This document shows positions 32,092 to 41,633 of a DNA stretch of 64,000 nt, piece after piece. The stretch covers positions 1,426,001 through 1,490,000 of the forward strand of contig NZ_JACHWY010000001.1 in the NCBI RefSeq assembly GCF_014191715.1, given 5' to 3'. Source of the DNA: Litorivivens lipolytica (GTDB lineage: Bacteria; Pseudomonadota; Gammaproteobacteria; Pseudomonadales; Spongiibacteraceae). The position numbers and the translations under genes were made by a program. Every line of letters begins with the position of its first letter. Position 1 is the first letter of the stretch. Under the pieces are notes generated by a model, which was not told the origin of the DNA, searched no databases, and worked only from the letters and a program-made list of their open reading frames with translations.

Positions 32092-34053
32092 ATGACAAGC
32101 ATTTACCGTATTTCCGCCCTCGCACTGGTGGCGCTGCTGGCAGCCTGCTCCGGCACCCCAACAGAACCCGGTCAGAAGGCGAGTTATAAGCGGCAGGAAC
32201 TGCCGATGGATCCGCAATTGAGCCCCCGAGAACAGGTTAACCTCTGGCTCGAGCGAGCGGCGGCGACAGAAGAAATTCCCGATAAACAGCACTACCAGCT
32301 GCGCGCCGCTGAATTGCTGCTGCGAGAACTGCAGCTGCCGCTAGCTGAAGAATTGCTTAGCAACGTCGATGCCTCAGTGCTGCCTGCCGAGCTCCGCGTG
32401 CAGTACGCTTCGCTCTCAGCCCGCATTCTGCGTAATCAGGGCAAGTTTCAGGAAGCATTGGCCCTGCTGAATGAAGAACAATTGCAAGACATGATCCTGA
32501 TGGCTGACCTGCCCCGCCAACTGCAGATCAGCCAGTTACGAGCATCGTTGTACGCACTAGAAGGCCAGCACCTGGAGGCCGCCCAAGAGCGAATTTACAT
32601 TGATCCACTGCTAGCCAGCAGCCAACAGGCGATCAACCGGGAAGGCATCTGGCACTCCCTATCTTACGTGTCCACCCGGCGTCTTATCGAAAGTCACCAC
32701 AGTGCCACCAACCGCGACTTCCTCGGCTGGATCGAGCTGGCGTCAATCTCCAAAGACAATCAGGGCGATATAGATTCCCAGGTGCGCCAGCTCAATGCCT
32801 GGCTCCAGCGCTGGCCCAATCACCCCGCCGCCAACAACTTGCCGGGCGGGCTGACCCAACTGAGCGACATGGCGGCCGAAAAACCCCAGCAGGTCGCCAT
32901 GATTCTGCCCTTCACCGGCAAGCTGGCCCCGCTGGGCAAAGCCATCCGCGATGGCTTTATGGCGACCTACCATCAGACCCGCGGGCGCGGTAACCCGGCG
33001 CCGCAGGTTCGCACTTACGACAGTGCGGACGGACAGCAGATCGGCAGCCTGTATCGGCAGGCCGTTGCCGACGGCGCCCAGCTGGTCATCGGCCCTTTGC
33101 GCAAAGATGTTGTGGAAACCCTGCTCGAGCAGGTGCCCGTGTTTGACGTGCCGGTACTGGCACTGAACCGCGCTAAAGGCGACCAGTTTCCTTTGAATTT
33201 CTACCAGTTTGCGCTGGCGCCGGAAGACGAAGCGAGGCAGATCGCGCGGATAGCCGCCAGTGAAGGCTTTCAACGGGCGATGGTGTTGATACCGGAAGGC
33301 GAATGGGGCATGAATGTCGCCCGCGCTTTTTCCGAAAACTGGAGTCAAGTCGGAGGTCAGGTCGTTGCCCAAGCCACCTTCAGCGGCAAAGCCAATGATT
33401 ACTCCAAAATCATCAAGGACGCCATGCAACTGGATCGCAGCGAAAAGCGCGCCCAGAAACTGACCTGGCTGATCGGCAACAATATCGAATTCCATCCGCG
33501 CCGTCGCAGCGATATTGATTTCATCTTTCTGGTGGCGCGCCCCAGTGAAGCCTACGCCATCAAACCGCTACTAGCCTTCCACTACGCGGGCGACGTACCG
33601 GTCTACGCCACTTCCCACATATACTCTGGCATTCCCGCCCCGGCCAAGAACCGGGATATCGACGGTGTAAAGTTTGTTGATTCACCGTGGGCCTTAACCG
33701 ATCAGGCCCCCGAGAAGTCCCTTATCCTGAAAGAGCTGCCGCAAAGCCGCCACTATCAGCGCATGTATGCTCTCGGAGTCGATGCCTACCGGCTTTACCC
33801 TCGCCTGCAGCAAATGGCACGATTGAACGAAAGCCGGGTTTATGGCGAAAGTGGCAGCCTAAGCCTGAATGAAGTGGGTCAGATCGAACGCCAGCTACTG
33901 CTGGCCGTATTCGAAGATGGTTTAGCCAAAAACATACCGCTGACAGACACAACGTTGGATAAGGACATCCATGACAAAGACATTGCCCCCGCAGAGCGGA
34001 ATGCGCAGGAAGGCTACCGCGGCCAACAGAACACAGTTTGGGAACTTCGTTGA
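32092..34053 (+). CDS. lpoA: Outer-membrane lipoprotein LpoA, activator of PBP1a
   Basis: LpoA reaches from the outer membrane through the peptidoglycan to stimulate the class A synthase PBP1a. It has 653 residues from the ATG at 32092, chosen because it begins a lipoprotein signal peptide ending in the lipobox LAA-C19. Residues 20 to about 280 form the helical TPR-like domain. About 285-650 is a periplasmic-binding-protein-like domain (QQVAMILPFTGKLAPLGKAIRDGFM). The frame open upstream to 32008 would run into rsmI. The end overlaps yraN by 83 bp. Confidence 0.9.
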   Translation: MTSIYRISALALVALLAACSGTPTEPGQKASYKRQELPMDPQLSPREQVNLWLERAAATEEIPDKQHYQLRAAELLLRELQLPLAEELLSNVDASVLPAELRVQYASLSARILRNQGKFQEALALLNEEQLQDMILMADLPRQLQISQLRASLYALEGQHLEAAQERIYIDPLLASSQQAINREGIWHSLSYVSTRRLIESHHSATNRDFLGWIELASISKDNQGDIDSQVRQLNAWLQRWPNHPAANNLPGGLTQLSDMAAEKPQQVAMILPFTGKLAPLGKAIRDGFMATYHQTRGRGNPAPQVRTYDSADGQQIGSLYRQAVADGAQLVIGPLRKDVVETLLEQVPVFDVPVLALNRAKGDQFPLNFYQFALAPEDEARQIARIAASEGFQRAMVLIPEGEWGMNVARAFSENWSQVGGQVVAQATFSGKANDYSKIIKDAMQLDRSEKRAQKLTWLIGNNIEFHPRRRSDIDFIFLVARPSEAYAIKPLLAFHYAGDVPVYATSHIYSGIPAPAKNRDIDGVKFVDSPWALTDQAPEKSLILKELPQSRHYQRMYALGVDAYRLYPRLQQMARLNESRVYGESGSLSLNEVGQIERQLLLAVFEDGLAKNIPLTDTTLDKDIHDKDIAPAERNAQEGYRGQQNTVWELR

Positions 34054-34417
34054 AGAGCAAACCTGCCGCTGGCTGACCCAGCAAGGCGTGCATATTCTGG
34101 AACGAAATTTTCGCTGTCGAAGCGGCGAGATCGATATCATCGGTCGCCACAGGGGATTCCTCGTTTTTATCGAGGTTCGCTTTCGCCGCAGCAATCGCTA
34201 CGGCGGTGCGGCGGCCAGTGTCGACGCCCGCAAACAGCTGAAGCTGGCAAAGGCGGCGCAGTTTTTTTTGCTCCGTCATCGCGCATTGCAAAATGCAGCC
34301 TGTCGCTTTGACGTGATTGCGGTCAGCGGTAAGAATGTCCAACCGGGTAGCGATCAGCTGGAATTCGACTGGCATCGAGCCGCCTTTTCACTAGACGATA
34401 TAAGCCATGCTTTCTGA
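33971..34417 (+). CDS. yraN: YraN family (UPF0102) nuclease-fold protein
   Basis: This is a 148-residue protein of the UPF0102 family, which has a restriction-endonuclease-like fold and an unproven role in DNA processing. The core motif is GEIDIIGRHRGFLVFIEVRFR (about 54-74). It supplies E, D and E-x-K/R-type residues, with R in the last position, as in many homologues. AAGGA at 33961-33965 stands 5 bases before this ATG, which supports an 83-bp overlap with lpoA rather than a later start at residue 11. It overlaps the diaA-like gene by 11 bases. Confidence 0.9.
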   Translation: MTKTLPPQSGMRRKATAANRTQFGNFVEEQTCRWLTQQGVHILERNFRCRSGEIDIIGRHRGFLVFIEVRFRRSNRYGGAAASVDARKQLKLAKAAQFFLLRHRALQNAACRFDVIAVSGKNVQPGSDQLEFDWHRAAFSLDDISHAF

Positions 34418-34997
34418 ATACGTATCCGATATTTTTCACAGCCATATCGACGCCGCTATGCGCTGCATCGATGCCAACAGCGAGTCCATTGCTGCAGCCT
34501 CAGAACTGATGGTCGGCTGCATGCTCAGCGAGGGCAAGATCTTCTGCTGCGGCGATGGCGCCAACAGCCTGATGCCCCATCTGTTAACGGCCAACCTGCA
34601 GAATCGCTATCAGTACGAGCGCCCGTCCTTGCCCGCCATTAACCTCAGCGCCGATACGGTTGTCACGGCAGGCATTACCGCCGACAGCGCCTATGGCGAA
34701 CTCTATTCGCGCCAGCTGCAATCGCTGGGGCAGTCCGGCGATATTGTTGTTATTTATTATCAGGGCAACGTGTCGGCCGCCGTCGTTAAGGCGGTACAGG
34801 CAGCTCATGAGCGAGATATGACCATAATCGCAATTAGCAATGCGGACGGTAGCGAAACCAATGCACTGCTGACCGCCAATGACATCGAGATCGCGATTCC
34901 GCATAATAATCGCGCCCGCGTCAGCGAAATGCAGATGGTCGTTACCAATAGCCTTTGCGAGCTGGTTGAGATGCAACTGTTTGGAGCCAATGAATAA
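34407..34997 (+). CDS. diaA: DiaA-like SIS-domain protein (DnaA-initiator-associating type)
   Basis: It has 196 residues, the length of E. coli DiaA, which is a tetrameric SIS protein that binds DnaA and times initiation. The ERPSLPAINL, VVKAVQAAHERDMTIIAISNADG and DIEIAIPHNNRARVSEMQM segments align with DiaA. The two loops that bind phosphosugar in the GmhA/DiaA family are altered. GNGxSAxxAQH reads GDGANSLMPHL, and the SxSGNS loop reads YYQGNVS, so isomerase activity is unlikely. It lies between yraN and dolP, the normal place for this gene, and overlaps both. Confidence 0.8.
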   Translation: MLSEYVSDIFHSHIDAAMRCIDANSESIAAASELMVGCMLSEGKIFCCGDGANSLMPHLLTANLQNRYQYERPSLPAINLSADTVVTAGITADSAYGELYSRQLQSLGQSGDIVVIYYQGNVSAAVVKAVQAAHERDMTIIAISNADGSETNALLTANDIEIAIPHNNRARVSEMQMVVTNSLCELVEMQLFGANE

Positions 34998-35565
34998 CGT
35001 GCGCGTATACCTGATAGCTTTGTTTTCTACATTGATATGGCTTAGCGGCTGTACGGCCATTGTCAGCGCGACCAGTGAAGGTCCAATCCAGGAAGACCCG
35101 GGTGAACGCACCCTCGGCGCCGCCATCGACGATCAAATCATTGAAACCAAAGCCTTGGTGAATATCCGCGCCGCAGACCCGGCTCTCGACAATGCGAATA
35201 TTGATGCTGTCAGCTACAACGGCATTCTACTGCTCATCGGGCAGGTGCCCTCGGAAACCCTTCGCCAACAGGCTGCGACTATCGCCGCCAATATCAAACG
35301 GGTGCGCCGGGTGCATAATGAACTGATCGTAACCGGCAAAACCTCGCTATTGGTACGCAGCAACGACGCCTGGCTTAGCACCAAAGTGCGCAGCAAACTG
35401 GCCTTCAGCGACAAGCTGGATTCGGGGCGCATCAAGGTGGTAACCGAAAACGGCGTGGTTTATCTGATGGGAATCGTCAGCGGGCAGGAAGCCGACATTG
35501 CAGCGGATCTTGTTAGACAGACCAACGGGGTGCAGCGAGTGGTTCGGGTTTTCGAATATCTGTGA
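34990..35565 (+). CDS. dolP: BON-domain outer-membrane lipoprotein DolP (YraP)
   Basis: DolP is a dual-BON lipoprotein that binds anionic phospholipid at division sites and supports outer-membrane integrity and BAM function in E. coli. It has 191 residues from the ATG at 34990, which starts a signal peptide ending in lipobox LSG-C21. BON1 covers about 50-115 (VSYNGILLLIGQVPSE) and BON2 about 125-190 (VVTENGVVYLMGIVSGQEAD). It overlaps the diaA-like stop by 8 bases and is convergent with sspB, with 3 bases between the stop codons. Confidence 0.92.
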   Translation: MNNVRVYLIALFSTLIWLSGCTAIVSATSEGPIQEDPGERTLGAAIDDQIIETKALVNIRAADPALDNANIDAVSYNGILLLIGQVPSETLRQQAATIAANIKRVRRVHNELIVTGKTSLLVRSNDAWLSTKVRSKLAFSDKLDSGRIKVVTENGVVYLMGIVSGQEADIAADLVRQTNGVQRVVRVFEYL

Positions 35566-35568
35566 GGC

Positions 35569-35970
35569 TTATTTAACGACTTTCAGACTGGGACGCTTCG
35601 GCGCGTCACCGCTCTCTGAACCATCACCATCCGAAGTCGGCGGCGGCACATCGCCATCATCCGGTTCAAACAGCATGCCCTGCCCGTTCTCTCTGGCATA
35701 GATCGCGAGTACGGCACCGACCGGCACCCAGATATCTTGCGACACACCGCCGAAGCGACCACTGAAACTCAAATAGGCGTTGTCGATCGTTAAACCCACT
35801 ACCGCAGTCTCGGAAATATTCAGCACAATCTGACCGTCCTGAACAAAATCCTGCGGCACCACCACGCCCTCGCCCTCGGCGTTCACCAGAAGGTAGGGGG
35901 TGCACTGGTTATCCAGAATCCATTGGTAAATCGCCCGTATCATGTACGGGCGACTGGAACTCATCGACAT
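35569..35970 (-). CDS. sspB: ClpXP protease specificity-enhancing factor SspB
   Basis: SspB tethers ssrA-tagged and other substrates to ClpX. It has 133 residues. The N-terminal substrate-binding domain (RPYMIRAIYQWILDNQCTPYL ... FVQDGQIVLNIS ... FSGRFGG) is followed by an acidic flexible linker. The C-terminal ClpX-binding tail RPSLKVVK matches the XB motif (LRVVK in E. coli). It is the second gene after sspA, 16 bp downstream. Confidence 0.95.
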   Translation of the reverse strand: MSMSSSRPYMIRAIYQWILDNQCTPYLLVNAEGEGVVVPQDFVQDGQIVLNISETAVVGLTIDNAYLSFSGRFGGVSQDIWVPVGAVLAIYARENGQGMLFEPDDGDVPPPTSDGDGSESGDAPKRPSLKVVK

Positions 35971-35986
35971 AACAGAAAAGGAGCGA

Positions 35987-36634
35987 TCAAACCGCTACTT
36001 GAGCCGAAGCCATTTCGCGCTCTTGCTCGGAAAGGCTTTCTTTGAAGGAAGGACGTTCAAACAGACGCTCCATGTAAGCCAGCAAAGGCTTGGTCTGTTT
36101 GGTATTGGGAATCTCGATACCCATCAGCGGCAAGCGCCACAGAATAGACGCCAGGCAGCAATCCACCAGCGTGAACTCATCGCTCATAAAGTATGGCTTT
36201 TCGCTGAACAGCGGGGAGATCGCGAGCAAGGTATCTTTCAGCTCTTTGCGCGCCTTATCCACGGTCTTGGCAGCACCACCGGCCAGAATCTGATCTACCA
36301 GCGCACACCAGTCGCGCTCAATGCGATAGATATACTGACGGCTCTCGCCACGAGCAACCGGATACACCGGCAACAGCGGCGGGTGCGGGAAGCGCTCGTC
36401 CAGATACTCCATCATGACCTTGGACTCGTACAAAGCCAGATCACGATCAACCAGCGTAGGCAGGCTGTTGTAGGGATTGATGTCAGCGATTTCCTGCGGC
36501 AGGTTATTCGGGTCTACATGAATAACATCGACCGTTACGCCCTTTTCGCAGAGAACAATACGAACCCGATGGCTATAGTGGCTGTTCGGGTCGGAAAAAA
36601 ATGTCATGGTTGATCGCTTGGCGACAATCCCCAT
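35987..36634 (-). CDS. sspA: Stringent starvation protein A
   Basis: SspA is a glutathione-S-transferase-fold RNA polymerase-associated protein that acts in stationary phase and acid tolerance. It has 215 residues. The N-terminal thioredoxin-like domain ([23 protein letters not shown]) lacks a catalytic Cys/Ser, as in the family. The surface [17 protein letters not shown] segment, conserved for RNAP binding, is intact. It is downstream of the petABC genes, with an 8-bp perfect stem-loop in between. Confidence 0.95.
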
Positions 36635-36663
36635 CGAGCTTTCCTCACAAAAATCTAAACGGA

Positions 36664-36683
36664 GCGGCCGCGGATGCGGCCGC
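36664..36683. terminator. GC-rich stem-loop between petBC and sspA
   Basis: GCGGCCGC-GGAT-GCGGCCGC forms an 8-bp perfect G/C-only stem with a 4-base loop, 8 bp after the petBC stop. On the minus strand it is followed by a T-rich stretch only about 13 bases later (GATTTTTG). It is therefore either an inefficient terminator that lets some transcription into sspA or an RNA-stability hairpin. Confidence 0.5.
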
Positions 36684-36691
36684 CGGTTCTG

Positions 36692-38752
36692 TTAGTGTAC
36701 GTCTTTCCAGTACTCGCGATTCAGCAAGAACGCAAAAACGAAAAACAGAGCAATAAAGAGTAACACATAAATGCCCAGCTGCTTGCGCTCAGCCTGCATG
36801 GGCTCACCGATGTACTCCAGGAAGTTCACCAGGTTGTACATAGCGGTATCGAATTCAGCGGGGCTCATGGAACCTTCCTGAACCAGCGTGAAGCTGCCAC
36901 AGGGGTTCAAGGCCTTACCGGATTCATCAAACAGAATATTCTCACCAGTCAGCTTGTCGCGCAAAATGCCACCGTTCTCGTCGCGAACCGGGCCGGGGGC
37001 GCAAGCCTGCAAACCCTGCAGCTCTTCCAGTACATGGGGCATACCCACATCAGGAAATACCCGGTTGTTCACACCGTAGGGGCGAGACTCATCCTGATAG
37101 AAGTTGCGCAGGTAAGTGTACAGCCACTGGGGGTTGCGAGAACGAGCGATCAGCGTCAGGTCAGGTGGTGCAGCACCGAAGAACTGCTTGCCGTCTTTAA
37201 ACGACATAGACCCTTCCATAAGGTCACCGATCAGATGGCTTGAGCTGAATTTCAGGTTCTCTTCAAACAGATCAACCGGAATGCCCAGATCGTCAGCGGT
37301 GCGCTTGTAGCGAGCGTACTGCAGACCGTGACAGCCCATGCAGTAGTTCATATAAAGCTGGGCACCGCTTTGCAGCGATGCCTTGTCAGTAACATCAAAC
37401 TCAACTTCATCACAGGGAATGGTGCCACAGGCGTAGGCGCTTTCCGCACCGACCGCCTTGATCGGGATGATGGCCAGACCCATGATCAGGATAAAGGCAC
37501 CGACACTGCGCCAGAAACCCATACCGCCATTCATGGTCACACGCTCAGGTACCGGCTTGGTCTTCTCAAGGCTGGTCCAGATCGGCATGGCCAGGAAGAA
37601 CAGGAAGTAAATCACTGAACAGATCTGAGCCAGAATGGTACGACCTTCGGTCGGCGCCTTCACACCCAGATAACCCAGGATGATAAAGGAGGAGGCAAAC
37701 AGCACCAGCGCAACCTTACTGAACATCCCTTTATAACGGATGGAGTTCACCGGGCTGCGATCCAGCCAGGGCAGTACAAACAAGATGGCTACCGAGGCAG
37801 CAAAGGCGATGAAGCCCAGCAGTTTATCGGGAACCGCACGCAGTACCGAATAGAACGGCGTGAAGTACCAGACAGGCGCGATGTGCTCAGGGGTCTTCAG
37901 GCTGTTGGCAATTTCAAAGTTGGCATACTCGATAAAGAAGCCACCCATTTCCGGCAGGAAGAAGATCACCGCACAGAAGATAAACAGGAATACCGCTACC
38001 GCCTGCAGGTCATGCACGGTGTAGTACGGGTGGAAAGCAACGCCATCCAGGGGCTTGCCGGTCTCATCCTTGTTCTTCTTGATATCAACGCCATCGGGGT
38101 TGTTGGAACCCACTTCGTGCAGCGCCAGCAGGTGAAGCACAACCAGCGCCAGCAAGACGATGGGCAGCGCCACCACGTGCAGGGCAAAGAAGCGGTTCAG
38201 GGTAATACCGGAAATCAGGTAGTCACCACGCACCCACTGTACGATGTCTTCACCCACCACCGGGATCGCCCCAAACAGCGAGATGATAACCTGGGCACCC
38301 CAGTAGGACATTTGCCCCCAGGGCAGTACATAACCGACGAAAGCCTCTGCCATCAGAATGACAAAGATCAGCATGCCGAACACCCACACCAGCTCGCGCG
38401 GCTTTTTGTAGGAGCCGTAGAGCAGACCGCGGAACATGTGGAGATACACGACCACAAAGAAGGCCGAGGCGCCGGTGGAGTGCATGTAACGGATGATCCA
38501 GCCGAAGTCCACATCACGCATGATGTATTCAACGGAGCGGAAGGCTTCTTCTGAAGACGGGGTGTAGCTCATGGTGAGCCAGATACCGGTCAGCAGCTGA
38601 TTAACCAGAACCAGCAGCGACAGGACACCGAAGAAATACCAGAAGTTGAAGTTCTTGGGCGCGTAGTATTTACCCATGTGGGTATTCCACGCACGCATGA
38701 TCGGCAGGCGATCATCAACCCAGTCACGCAGACCAATAAGCATGTTAATCAT
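36692..38752 (-). CDS. Fused cytochrome b / cytochrome c1 of the bc1 complex
   Basis: One uninterrupted 686-residue frame encodes two subunits of ubiquinol-cytochrome c reductase that are separate in most gammaproteobacteria. Residues 1 to about 405 are cytochrome b: eight hydrophobic helices, heme ligands H91/H105 and H192/H207, and the Qo motif PVWY (variant of PEWY). Residues 407-436 (MNGGMGFWRS then a hydrophobic run ending IKAVGA) look like a signal peptide with cleavage before E437. Residues 437-686 are cytochrome c1: heme site C471-M-G-C-H475, GMPHVLEE with the likely axial Met, and a C-terminal anchor (about 660-680). The arrangement resembles FbcH of Bradyrhizobium, a precursor cut into two proteins. 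It starts directly after the Rieske stop codon. Confidence 0.93.
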   Translation of the reverse strand: MINMLIGLRDWVDDRLPIMRAWNTHMGKYYAPKNFNFWYFFGVLSLLVLVNQLLTGIWLTMSYTPSSEEAFRSVEYIMRDVDFGWIIRYMHSTGASAFFVVVYLHMFRGLLYGSYKKPRELVWVFGMLIFVILMAEAFVGYVLPWGQMSYWGAQVIISLFGAIPVVGEDIVQWVRGDYLISGITLNRFFALHVVALPIVLLALVVLHLLALHEVGSNNPDGVDIKKNKDETGKPLDGVAFHPYYTVHDLQAVAVFLFIFCAVIFFLPEMGGFFIEYANFEIANSLKTPEHIAPVWYFTPFYSVLRAVPDKLLGFIAFAASVAILFVLPWLDRSPVNSIRYKGMFSKVALVLFASSFIILGYLGVKAPTEGRTILAQICSVIYFLFFLAMPIWTSLEKTKPVPERVTMNGGMGFWRSVGAFILIMGLAIIPIKAVGAESAYACGTIPCDEVEFDVTDKASLQSGAQLYMNYCMGCHGLQYARYKRTADDLGIPVDLFEENLKFSSSHLIGDLMEGSMSFKDGKQFFGAAPPDLTLIARSRNPQWLYTYLRNFYQDESRPYGVNNRVFPDVGMPHVLEELQGLQACAPGPVRDENGGILRDKLTGENILFDESGKALNPCGSFTLVQEGSMSPAEFDTAMYNLVNFLEYIGEPMQAERKQLGIYVLLFIALFFVFAFLLNREYWKDVH

Positions 38753-39352
38753 TTACGCCGCCTCCTGATCTACGCCGATAACCAATACGTTGTCGCTTTC
38801 ATAGCTATAGGGCGGCACCACCAGATTGTCAGAGGCGGGAACACCCTTATAGACGCGACCAGCGAGGTCAAACTTGGAACCGTGACAGGGGCAGAAAAAG
38901 CCGCCTTGCCAGGTATCGCCACCGAGGTCGGCCGCGCCAACTTCGAAGCGTTTTTTCGGCGCACAGCCGAGGTGGGTACACAGACCAACCAGCACCAGAA
39001 TTTCGGGCTTGATCGAACGGGCCTGAGGATCAACATAGGCCGGTTGCTGGGCCGCATTGCCTGACTGCGGGTCTTTCAGGAAGTCGTCGACCTTGTCGAG
39101 ACCGGCAACCTGCTCGTCGGTGCGACGCATCACGTACACCGGCTTGCCACGCCATTCCTTGACGACCATCTGGCCCGGCTCAAGCTTGCTGATATCAACC
39201 TTAACGGGCGCACCGGCCGCTTCGGCCTTGGCGCTGGGGTTCCAGGAACCCACAAACGGCACTGCGACACCAACAGCCCCTGCCGCGCCCACTACCGATG
39301 TAGCGGCGGTCAGGAAGCGTCGACGCCCCGTATTTACTCCGTCATTGCTCAT
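38753..39352 (-). CDS. petA: Rieske iron-sulfur subunit of the bc1 complex
   Basis: This subunit carries electrons from ubiquinol to cytochrome c1. It has 199 residues. The twin-arginine signal/anchor GRRRFLTAATS (residues 9-19) precedes a hydrophobic segment (about 16-34). Cluster ligands are C125/H127 in CTHLGC and C154/H157 in CPCHGS; C130 and C156 form the disulfide. It is first in the petA-petBC operon, with a likely promoter 85-115 bp upstream. Confidence 0.96.
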   Translation of the reverse strand: MSNDGVNTGRRRFLTAATSVVGAAGAVGVAVPFVGSWNPSAKAEAAGAPVKVDISKLEPGQMVVKEWRGKPVYVMRRTDEQVAGLDKVDDFLKDPQSGNAAQQPAYVDPQARSIKPEILVLVGLCTHLGCAPKKRFEVGAADLGGDTWQGGFFCPCHGSKFDLAGRVYKGVPASDNLVVPPYSYESDNVLVIGVDQEAA

Positions 39353-39429
39353 GACGTTTCCCCCATTACTCAGAAAAGTCCAGGATGATTCAGGGATGGG
39401 AAAGGCAAACCTGAGTCAGAATTCAAATG

Positions 39430-39465
39430 GGGGCAAATAGTAAAGAAATTGCCCCTGTGTGACAA
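39430..39465 (-). promoter_or_regulatory. petA promoter with inverted repeat over the -10
   Basis: On the minus strand TTGTCA (39465-39460) and TACTAT (39442-39437) are 17 bp apart. A perfect 7-bp inverted repeat GGGGCAA-N12-TTGCCCC (39430-39436 and 39449-39455) brackets the -10 element. The promoter call is well supported by spacing. The repeat could be an operator for an unknown regulator of the bc1 genes. Confidence 0.55.
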
Positions 39466-39508
39466 GGCGAATCTCCCTCTACACGGCGCTTCCAGCGCGG
39501 TAAGGCGC

Positions 39509-39546
39509 AAAAAAAACGCCCTGCGAAATAACTCCACAGGGCGTTT
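39509..39546 (-). terminator. Intrinsic terminator of the rplM-rpsI operon
   Basis: On the minus strand AAACGCCCTG pairs with CAGGGCGTTT across a 13-base loop and is followed by eight T residues. It lies 47 bp after the rpsI stop and separates the ribosomal operon from petA. Confidence 0.9.
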
Positions 39547-39592
39547 GAAAGACACCGGAGAGAAGACCTCTCCCAGCAACTCTGCCGTGCGA

Positions 39593-39985
39593 TTAACGCT
39601 TGGAGAATTGCGGCTTCTTACGTGCTTTGCGCAGACCCACTTTCTTACGCTCAACTTCACGAGCGTCGCGGGTAACGTAGCCAGCCTTACGCAGCGAACC
39701 GCGCAGACCTTCGTCGTACTCCATCAGAGCACGCGTGATGCCGTGACGAATCGCGCCCGCTTGACCAAAGCTGCCACCACCGGCAACGGTCACGTTGACG
39801 TCAAACTTCTCGGTCAGCTCAACCAGTTCCAGCGGCTGACGCACGATCATGCGCGCTACTTCGCGACCAAAGTACTGGTCCAGCGGACGCTTGTTGATGG
39901 TGATTGCACCGGTCCCCTGCTTCAGAAACACACGAGCAGTTGAGGTTTTGCGGCGACCGGTTCCGTAGTATTGGCTAGCTGACAT
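39593..39985 (-). CDS. rpsI: 30S ribosomal protein S9
   Basis: This 130-residue protein has the family motifs [16 protein letters not shown] (N-terminal), [19 protein letters not shown] and the basic C terminus RKKPQFSKR, whose last residues reach the P-site tRNA. It follows rplM by 15 bp. Confidence 0.98.
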
Positions 39986-40000
39986 AAATTTGGCGTCCGA

Positions 40001-40429
40001 TTAGATCTTGAGTTCTTGCGGCTGTTGCGCAGCGTGAGGGTGAGCTTCACCTGCGTACACTTTCAGTTTCTTGAACATGGCGCGACCCAGCGGGTTACGC
40101 GGCAGCATGCCCTTTACAGCGCGCTGCAGAACACGCTCAGGCGCGCGCTCGATCAGCTTCTCGAAGCTGAACGACTTCAGACCACCCGGGTAACCGGTGT
40201 GGTGGTGATACATTTTGTCAGTGGCTTTTTTACCGGTGACCGCAACCTTCTCGCAGTTGACCACAACGATGTAATCGCCAGTATCAACGTGCGGAGTGTA
40301 TTCCGGCTTGTGTTTGCCACGCAGGCGATGTGCGATCTCGCTGGCCAGACGCCCCAAGGTTTTTCCTTCGGCATCAACCACATACCAGTCACGCTTCACA
40401 GCGTCAGGGTTTGCACTATAGGTTTTCAT
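40001..40429 (-). CDS. rplM: 50S ribosomal protein L13
   Basis: L13 has 142 residues, the E. coli length. It begins [20 protein letters not shown] and contains the signature [18 protein letters not shown] and [13 protein letters not shown]. An open frame to 40621 overlaps zapE and has no homology. The ATG at 40429 is the true start. It is transcribed with rpsI from the promoter at 40470-40498. Confidence 0.98.
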
Positions 40430-40469
40430 CAATCCTGCCCCAAAGGCTCGTACATAAGAAAGAGCGCGA

Positions 40470-40498
40470 ATACTACAGAACCGGCCCTGCCATTTCAA
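40470..40498 (-). promoter_or_regulatory. Promoter of rplM-rpsI
   Basis: On the minus strand TTGAAA (40498-40493) and TAGTAT (40475-40470) are separated by exactly 17 bp. The bases after the -10 (TCGCGC) form a GC-rich discriminator, typical of promoters repressed by ppGpp. It lies 40 bp before the rplM ATG. Confidence 0.7.
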
Positions 40499-40526
40499 GC
40501 GTTTAATAGCCGCTGGCCAGGGATTT

Positions 40527-41633
40527 TTATGGCCTGTGCTCGCGCGCCAGATAGTCGTGCGACTGCATCTCCAGCAGCCGACTGACCGTGCGCTGGAATT
40601 CGAATTCCAGGCGCCCGCCACTATACAGGGATTCGAGCGGCACCGCCGCTGACATCACCAGTTTTACATGCCGATCATAGAATTCGTCGACCATATTAAT
40701 AAACCGCCGCGCCTGATCGTCGTTTTTACTGCCCATTTGGGGCACATTACTGACCAATACCGCGTGGTAAATGCGCGCCAGCTCGATATAGTCATTCTGG
40801 CTACGCGGCCCGTCACAGAGCACCTTGAAGTCAAACCAGACGACATCATCGGCCACGAAGCGCGCCTTGATCTGACGCCCCTCAATATCCAGCTCGACAT
40901 CGGCCTGCCCCGGCTCCGGCGACAACTTCTCGAAAGAATCTGCCAGACTTTCATCCGCCTCGGGGTCCAGCGGGCTGTGGTAAAGCTCAGCCTGCTCCAG
41001 CGTGCGCAGACGGTAGTCGATACCGCCATCCACGTTAACCACCTTGGTGCGCGCCTTGATCAAATCGATCGCCGGCAGAAAACGGGCCCGCTGCAAGCCG
41101 TCTTTGTAAAGCTCTTCCGGCACAATATTCGAGGTCGCCACCAGCACCACCCCCCGGGCAAACAGCTCCTGGAACAGGCCCGCCAGAATCATGGCGTCAG
41201 TGATATCGGAAACGAAAAACTCATCAAAACAGATGACCCGCGCCTCCCGGGAAATCCGGTCCGCAATCACGGTCAGCGGGTTCTTTTCGCCCGCCAGCAT
41301 TTTCAGATCGCCGTGCACCCGGCGCATAAAGCGGTGGAAGTGCGCGCGCATCTTGCGCTCAAAGGGCAGACACTCGTAGAAGGTGTCCATCAGGTAGGTC
41401 TTGCCGCGTCCGACACCACCCCAGAAATAGAGCCCTTTCACCGGCTCGCGCTCTTCACCAATAAAACGCCCGAGCAGCCGCTGCACCACACTGGCCGCCT
41501 TTTGAGTCTGCTCCAGCTCAACCAGCTCGTCATAGAGGCGCTGCAGACACTCGACCGCATGCATCTGCGCCGGATCCGGCGTGAAATCGGGCCGCTGAAG
41601 GTCAGCGTTATAGCGCTCCAGAGGGGTTGCCAT
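40527..41633 (-). CDS. zapE: Cell division ATPase ZapE (AFG1 family)
   Basis: ZapE is an AAA+ ATPase that associates with the Z ring in E. coli under stress and resembles mitochondrial AFG1/LACE1. It has 368 residues from the ATG at 41633. Walker A is GGVGRGKT (72-79), and the Walker B region is [11 protein letters not shown]. The [17 protein letters not shown] sensor region is conserved. A frame open to 41672 adds no known sequence. It is next to rplM and divergent from zapG, as in E. coli yhcM/yhcB. Confidence 0.92.

Follow-up and report, generated by a model that had tools for sequence, protein, structure and literature searches.

In the respiratory bc1 enzyme, cytochrome b and cytochrome c1 normally come from two neighbouring genes. 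The window analysed here (the whole stretch of 64,000 nucleotides from Litorivivens lipolytica) contains instead a single frame of 686 amino acids (positions 38752–36692, minus strand), whose translation runs without an internal stop from one subunit into the other. Is this frame a genuine precursor, how would it be turned into two proteins, and where does the fusion come from? Precursors of this type are known from Bradyrhizobium. The following parts can be recognized at the locus:

38753..39352, minus strand: Rieske iron-sulfur subunit, directly upstream and on the same strand (TIGR01416, E 2.1e-67)
37535..38752, minus strand: cytochrome b domain, residues 1-406 (Pfam Cytochrome_B and Cytochrom_B_C)
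37535..37549, minus strand: PERVT, residues 402-406, the former C-terminus of cytochrome b, with CGT as the Arg codon in the window
37445..37534, minus strand: joint segment, residues 407-436, a signal-peptide-like helix ('TM9') ending in AVGA (AlphaFold and site pattern)
37444..37445, minus strand: putative signal peptidase I cut between AVGA and ESAY, after residue 436 (small residues at -3 and -1)
36692..37444, minus strand: cytochrome c1 domain, residues 437-686, and stop codon (Pfam Cytochrom_C1; 8smr_J, E 1.1e-68)
37328..37342, minus strand: CMGCH, haem c attachment motif, residues 471-475 (sequence motif)
35987..36634, minus strand: sspA, coding for stringent starvation protein A, the gene following downstream (NF007016 at 318.5 bits, cut-off 314)
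35569..35970, minus strand: SspB, ClpXP specificity factor, next after sspA downstream (PF04386, E 5.9e-34)

The Pfam domains Cytochrome_B (residues 28-215), Cytochrom_B_C (282-383) and Cytochrom_C1 (best stretch 452-556, E 6e-16 for the whole protein) all lie on the one frame. These three domains, the CxxCH motif and the Rieske gene directly upstream identify the protein as subunits b and c1 of a bc1 complex. The first-pass annotation, which had proposed a b-c1 polyprotein, was right in this respect, and also in placing the end of the PVPERVT stretch at residue 406 and that of AVGA at 436. In a fold search, the cytochrome b part was 77% identical over 400 columns to chain 8smr_D of the P. aeruginosa bc1-cbb3 supercomplex, and C471, C474 and H475 of the CMGCH motif are invariant in all 51 aligned fused proteins. 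No second cytochrome c1 gene was found in the genome of the window; a search of this genome with the fused protein gave no second match better than E 0.146 (over 32 residues). The locus thus has the properties of the FbcH type, i.e., b and c1 share an unbroken frame in a genome without another c1, and an internal signal sequence with a signal peptidase site, as judged from sequence pattern and predicted helix alone, appears to lie between them. The GC content stays within 0.53-0.57 over window positions 34000-41000, with no break in composition at the locus. Near the predicted N-terminus of mature c1 there is a CGxIxCD segment (CGTIPCD, residues 442-448, window 37409-37429), which is the majority form among the 51 aligned fused proteins and is found in the split loci L206-L208 as well; its two cysteines might form a disulfide.

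One objection to a fused gene is a sequencing or assembly error that joined two separate genes, and the first-pass annotation had considered a missed frameshift. Nothing speaks for it beyond the general possibility of such errors. The frame is unbroken in all three genomes of the genus and in 21 of 21 genomes of the family (the window's own genome being counted in both), as well as in many other families of the order, which excludes a frameshift in the assembly on the evidence of relatives, without recourse to raw reads. Furthermore, c1 is encoded in another frame in most split relatives of the order (frame 2 in all compared Pseudomonas and Halomonas loci), so an identical error would have had to arise in every case. 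We therefore regard the chance of an artefact as negligible.

How widespread the fusion is can be seen from the order as a whole. Out of 390 sampled genomes, 366 had a match, and at least 110 of these carry the fused frame (95 as one-piece matches across the joint without a stop, and 15 as long forms that were read individually); among the other 256 matching genomes, many have split genes. The fused loci belong to 14 family codes (f1, which is the window's own family, f186, f191, f192, f193, f195, f198, f205, f219, f220, f221, f223, f225 and f226), and the named records include Zhongshania, Halioglobus, Haliea, Seongchinamella, Gilvimarinus, Cellvibrio, Endobugula and Pseudohongiella, several of these being MAGs. 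Within f1, the core sequences of b and c1 in L127 are the same as those of L033, a record named Zhongshania antarctica, which suggests that the window belongs to Spongiibacteraceae or a near relative. In a sample of 369 genomes of the class, no unbroken b-c1 frame was present in any of the 290 matching genomes from outside the order; 142 of these were judged by frame lengths and stops and 148 were searched again with c1, giving a c1 match in 144 and none in four. Four candidates from the class with c1 frames of at least 540 amino acids (G147, G015, G311, G266) were discarded, as each has a stop after cytochrome b. In the phylum sample, several long c1 frames among the matches listed also turned out to be unfused, and of nine individually read loci from other classes (L226-L230, L235-L238), the two belonging to family f249 are the only ones with a fusion. 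To judge by these sequences, the fusion is an old trait shared by many families of the order, not a one-off of this genome.

What has happened to the border between the two genes? Split cytochrome b ends with KTKPVPERVTG* in Pseudomonas, Halomonas and Marinobacterium (alignment) and with RV(T/V)M(K/R)* in nine of 12 further split loci. There, c1 mostly starts in another frame; among 44 split loci of the order, its ATG overlaps the stop of cytochrome b in 31. The fused proteins retain the cytochrome b end as far as PxRVT(M) and continue into a new stretch, which in the wider group of the window mostly consists of GG(M/I)GFW, a hydrophobic core and LPLKAVGA. From the match to the split endings, the former end of cytochrome b reaches as far as residue 407; M407 is therefore best read as part of this end, not as a start of c1.

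The first-pass annotation had left room for an internal start at M407. According to this explanation, c1 would be made also or only from M407 (or M411), the fused frame being an accident of an overlapping operon. Indeed, the window has an ATG at 407, the product made from it would carry a signal-like N-terminus, and 67 of 89 fused proteins possess some Met within 14 residues after PxRV. However, a Met at the position of 407 itself occurs in only 37 of the 89 and is missing in L114, a member of the same genus, and in the nearer split relatives it is the last residue but one of cytochrome b that is aligned with M407. Of the 69 direct fusions, i.e., the fused loci without the long form described below, 15 have no ATG at all in the zone 40-75 residues upstream of CxxCH.

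The translation signals point in the same direction. Most split genes of the order have the c1 Shine-Dalgarno sequence within the PERVT codons (e.g., CCAGAGAGGGTGACA), which requires AGG, a rare codon for Arg. The Arg of this motif is encoded by AGR in 51 of 68 split genes (the split gene L202, which lacks the motif, is not among the 68) but in only 10 of 89 fused ones (8/69 direct, 2/20 long; Fisher p 1.1e-16, a value that ignores kinship, 21 of the 51 split AGR cases being Pseudomonadaceae). Elsewhere in the same frames, AGR makes up 7.0-7.4% in all three groups (65/880 split, 128/1831 direct, 39/528 long). The 17 split genes without AGR comprise all five readable loci of family f196, discussed below, and several families with a longer gap. 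Scored against what we take to be the anti-Shine-Dalgarno sequence, the best energy has a median of -6.95 for 44 split genes from the order versus -3.8 for the 54 direct fusions with any ATG in the zone named above; the window reaches -3.1, and internal ATGs of cytochrome b about -2.1. A few fused loci do keep AGR (two of three in f223, both long ones in f205 and a few others, including L114) or a Shine-Dalgarno score as good as in split genes (-6.4 in L116 and L140, -6.2 in L114 and L141), which speaks for an internal start. In most, the motif has been rewritten by synonymous codons. The loss of AGR together with the weaker Shine-Dalgarno sequences implies that the start signal of c1 mostly disappeared after the fusion. 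M407 was accordingly rejected as the main route to c1, and we consider an internal start very unlikely. The fused loci are thus a readable record of how the fusion took place, with the stop lost and the start signals erased.

A c1 made as part of the precursor would most likely be cut free from it, and the joint segment looks suited for this. AlphaFold predicts a helix of 22 residues here (412-433), with a mean pLDDT of 93 in 421-430 (73 for the whole model). Behind the hydrophobic core, all 89 fused proteins have a signal-peptidase-type site, [AVSG]x[AS], whereas 500 shuffles gave a mean of 56.4 and a maximum of 68; this pattern is permissive and also fits about 63% of shuffled stretches. The stricter pattern [AV]xA is found in 79 of 89 (shuffled mean 50.8, maximum 63), and the commonest site is VGA (51/89). 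The earlier description of residues 407-436 as signal-peptide-like is therefore well founded, and the cut before E437 suggested with it fits the conserved site. The solved P. aeruginosa c1 chain 8smr_J has 233 amino acids, of which residues 3-233 align with 447-683 here; without being proof, this fits a mature c1 starting somewhat before 447, as it would with E437.

The precursor might also never be cut, so that b and c1 would form one permanent protein held together by the joint helix. This helix is long enough to span the membrane and is fairly conserved. When pairs of equal c1 identity are compared, the joints are more alike than the signal peptides of split c1 in three of four bins (0.47 vs 0.42, 0.59 vs 0.44 and 0.83 vs 0.62), while in the bin of 0.7-0.8 c1 identity the values are 0.67 and 0.69, with only nine split pairs; the fused segments are longer, and the pairs share members and are hence not independent. 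On the other hand, the signal-peptidase-type site stands directly after the helix in every fused protein, and the FbcH precursor is reported to be cut. An uncut protein is in our opinion improbable.

We propose the following sequence of events. The gene would give rise to a single precursor that contains both cytochromes, b and c1. Cytochrome b has eight helices and a cytoplasmic C-terminus; the eight helices would be inserted accordingly, the joint segment would serve as an internal signal sequence for the export of c1 to the periplasm, and haem would be attached there at CMGCH. A cut by signal peptidase I after A436 would most likely free E437 as the N-terminus of c1. The segment itself may well be kept on cytochrome b as a ninth helix, for which the argument is given below. 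The fusion would have come about within the gammaproteobacterial lineage, when the stop of cytochrome b and the signals for starting c1 were lost, with no transfer from bearers of FbcH. Taken together, a single b/c1 precursor, a signal peptidase cut and an independent origin are very probable, cleavage and topology being deduced from the features described above. A 1:1 ratio could be seen as a benefit of the fusion; the bc1 subunits stand 1:1 in any case.

For the fate of the joint segment after the cut, family f196 (L198-L201, L223) offers the strongest clue. In this family b and c1 are separate genes, and c1 has an ordinary signal peptide (e.g., MKKLIASLFLSC...). The split cytochrome b is 445-446 amino acids long, and that of L198 ends with PDRITMNGG, a helix and LWLVEWLHSVNQAAAH. 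With a profile of the fused joints, four of the five readable tails were recognized at E 5.9e-8 to 1.1e-6 and the fifth at 0.048. The 798 controls consisted of signal peptides of c1, pieces and tails of cytochrome b, and shuffled tails; none of them did better than 0.11. Joints of the Pseudohongiella type gave weak matches to the main profile (E 0.0005 to 0.7). For the f196 cytochrome b, AlphaFold predicts one long helix, 412-445, with a pLDDT of about 89 in 421-440, in a model that is weak as a whole (63). The family falls inside the fused group in both quick-method trees, in a clade with SH-aLRT of 99 and 98, and a position outside the fused core is not rejected by the AU test (p 0.42). It shares a short YSVLRAVP-DK loop with the fused proteins; the loop of Pseudomonas is short, too. 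Family f196 may represent either a fusion that was split again and kept the helix, or a stage in which the helix was on cytochrome b before c1 joined. Either order of events implies that cytochrome b can carry the joint segment as a ninth helix.

As f196 keeps the segment on a split cytochrome b, we lean slightly towards its staying on cytochrome b as a ninth helix in the organism of the window too. A secretion signal would then have turned into a permanent part of a subunit, the former c1 signal peptide being useful enough as a ninth helix for f196 to keep both this helix and a separate c1 signal; we give this idea, too, a small preference. Signal peptides are usually degraded, and the segment could likewise be degraded or trimmed from cytochrome b, leaving a mature protein of eight helices, which would be compatible with a precursor and its cut. 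The excess of conservation of the joint is moderate and fails in one bin, as it might if the segment were lost. Against such a loss, the split f196 genes hold the segment at the end of cytochrome b with no c1 attached, and the TMxGG stretch and the helix recur through the main fused clade. We hold degradation or trimming to be somewhat less likely than retention. If the segment stays, f196 predicts a cytochrome b of nine helices as opposed to the eight-helix textbook form, and this family makes the fate of an internal signal peptide directly testable.

Where did the fusion come from? The annotation had called it independent or transferred, and the first of these fits the data, while the second does not. 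The b and c1 parts of the window are 72-78% and 46-51% identical, respectively, to the split genes of Pseudomonas, Halomonas and Marinobacterium, but only about 45% and 26% identical to the two fused f249 loci of another class, which we take to be of the Bradyrhizobium kind and use as a stand-in for FbcH, not being named Bradyrhizobium sequences. Common descent with the Bradyrhizobium fusion is thus not what these identities show, and this, together with the even base composition, indicates a fusion independent of that in f249 and led us to reject a transfer from bearers of FbcH. FbcH, reportedly described by Thony-Meyer in 1989 and 1991 as a cytochrome b/c1 precursor of Bradyrhizobium japonicum that is cut into its parts, is said to have the same order of cytochrome b, internal signal sequence, cut site and c1 in one frame; it differs in its origin, and the f249 joint lacks the TMxGG stretch. 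Judging from this likeness, the precursor of the window would work like FbcH and yet have arisen independently. The split petABC type (Pseudomonas, Halomonas, Marinobacterium; solved as 8smr) has the same, closely related subunits but differs in having two genes, a c1 Shine-Dalgarno sequence that in most cases lies in the last codons of b, and a cytochrome b ending in PERVTG.

Within the order, the fusion may have had either one origin or several. A tree of 137 rows, among them the two of f249, requires six switches between the fused and the split state; the f249 rows were set as the outgroup, and the tree is therefore no independent test of shared descent of the fusions. In AU tests on a tree of 65 rows, one clade of all gammaproteobacterial fusions with f196 was not rejected (p 0.26), nor was the same clade without the Pseudohongiella type (p 0.29), whose joint (...VTGRWIS...) looks different from the main one. 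A lineage-wide b/c1 precursor is of a known kind; what is new here is the claim on the fate of the signal peptide. The second, older and wide occurrence in marine Gammaproteobacteria makes the b-c1 fusion a repeatable evolutionary step. Among the matches listed for the open-licence literature, we found no description of a gammaproteobacterial b/c1 fusion. An entry in PMC12456017 gives fbcH as 'cytochrome b/c1 subunit', and a term search of the main text of the Cellvibrionales framework paper of 2015 (PMC4391266) found none of the words fusion, fused, bc1 or petB.

A long form of the fused protein, mostly 720-750 amino acids in total, is present in Cellvibrio, Endobugula and further members of the order. 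It resembles that of the window in having b, a similar joint and c1 in one frame, but between b and the joint there are about 50-70 additional residues, which include two further hydrophobic stretches. This form was observed at L041, L043-L046, L149, L152, L153, L157, L160, L165, L167, L196, L197, L203, L204, L221, L222, L224 and L225. Long and short forms occur together within the single genus codes g324 and g347, so the long form must have been gained or lost repeatedly. When the extra stretches were compared with the last helix pair of cytochrome b as a possible copy, z was at least 3 in three of 20. An unfused cytochrome b from outside the order (L234, genome G015) also has two extra hydrophobic stretches before its terminal PDRVTG, and such a pair is therefore not tied to the fusion. 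In L032 and L060, unfused cytochrome b carries a longer, mostly polar tail beyond KTKPVP.
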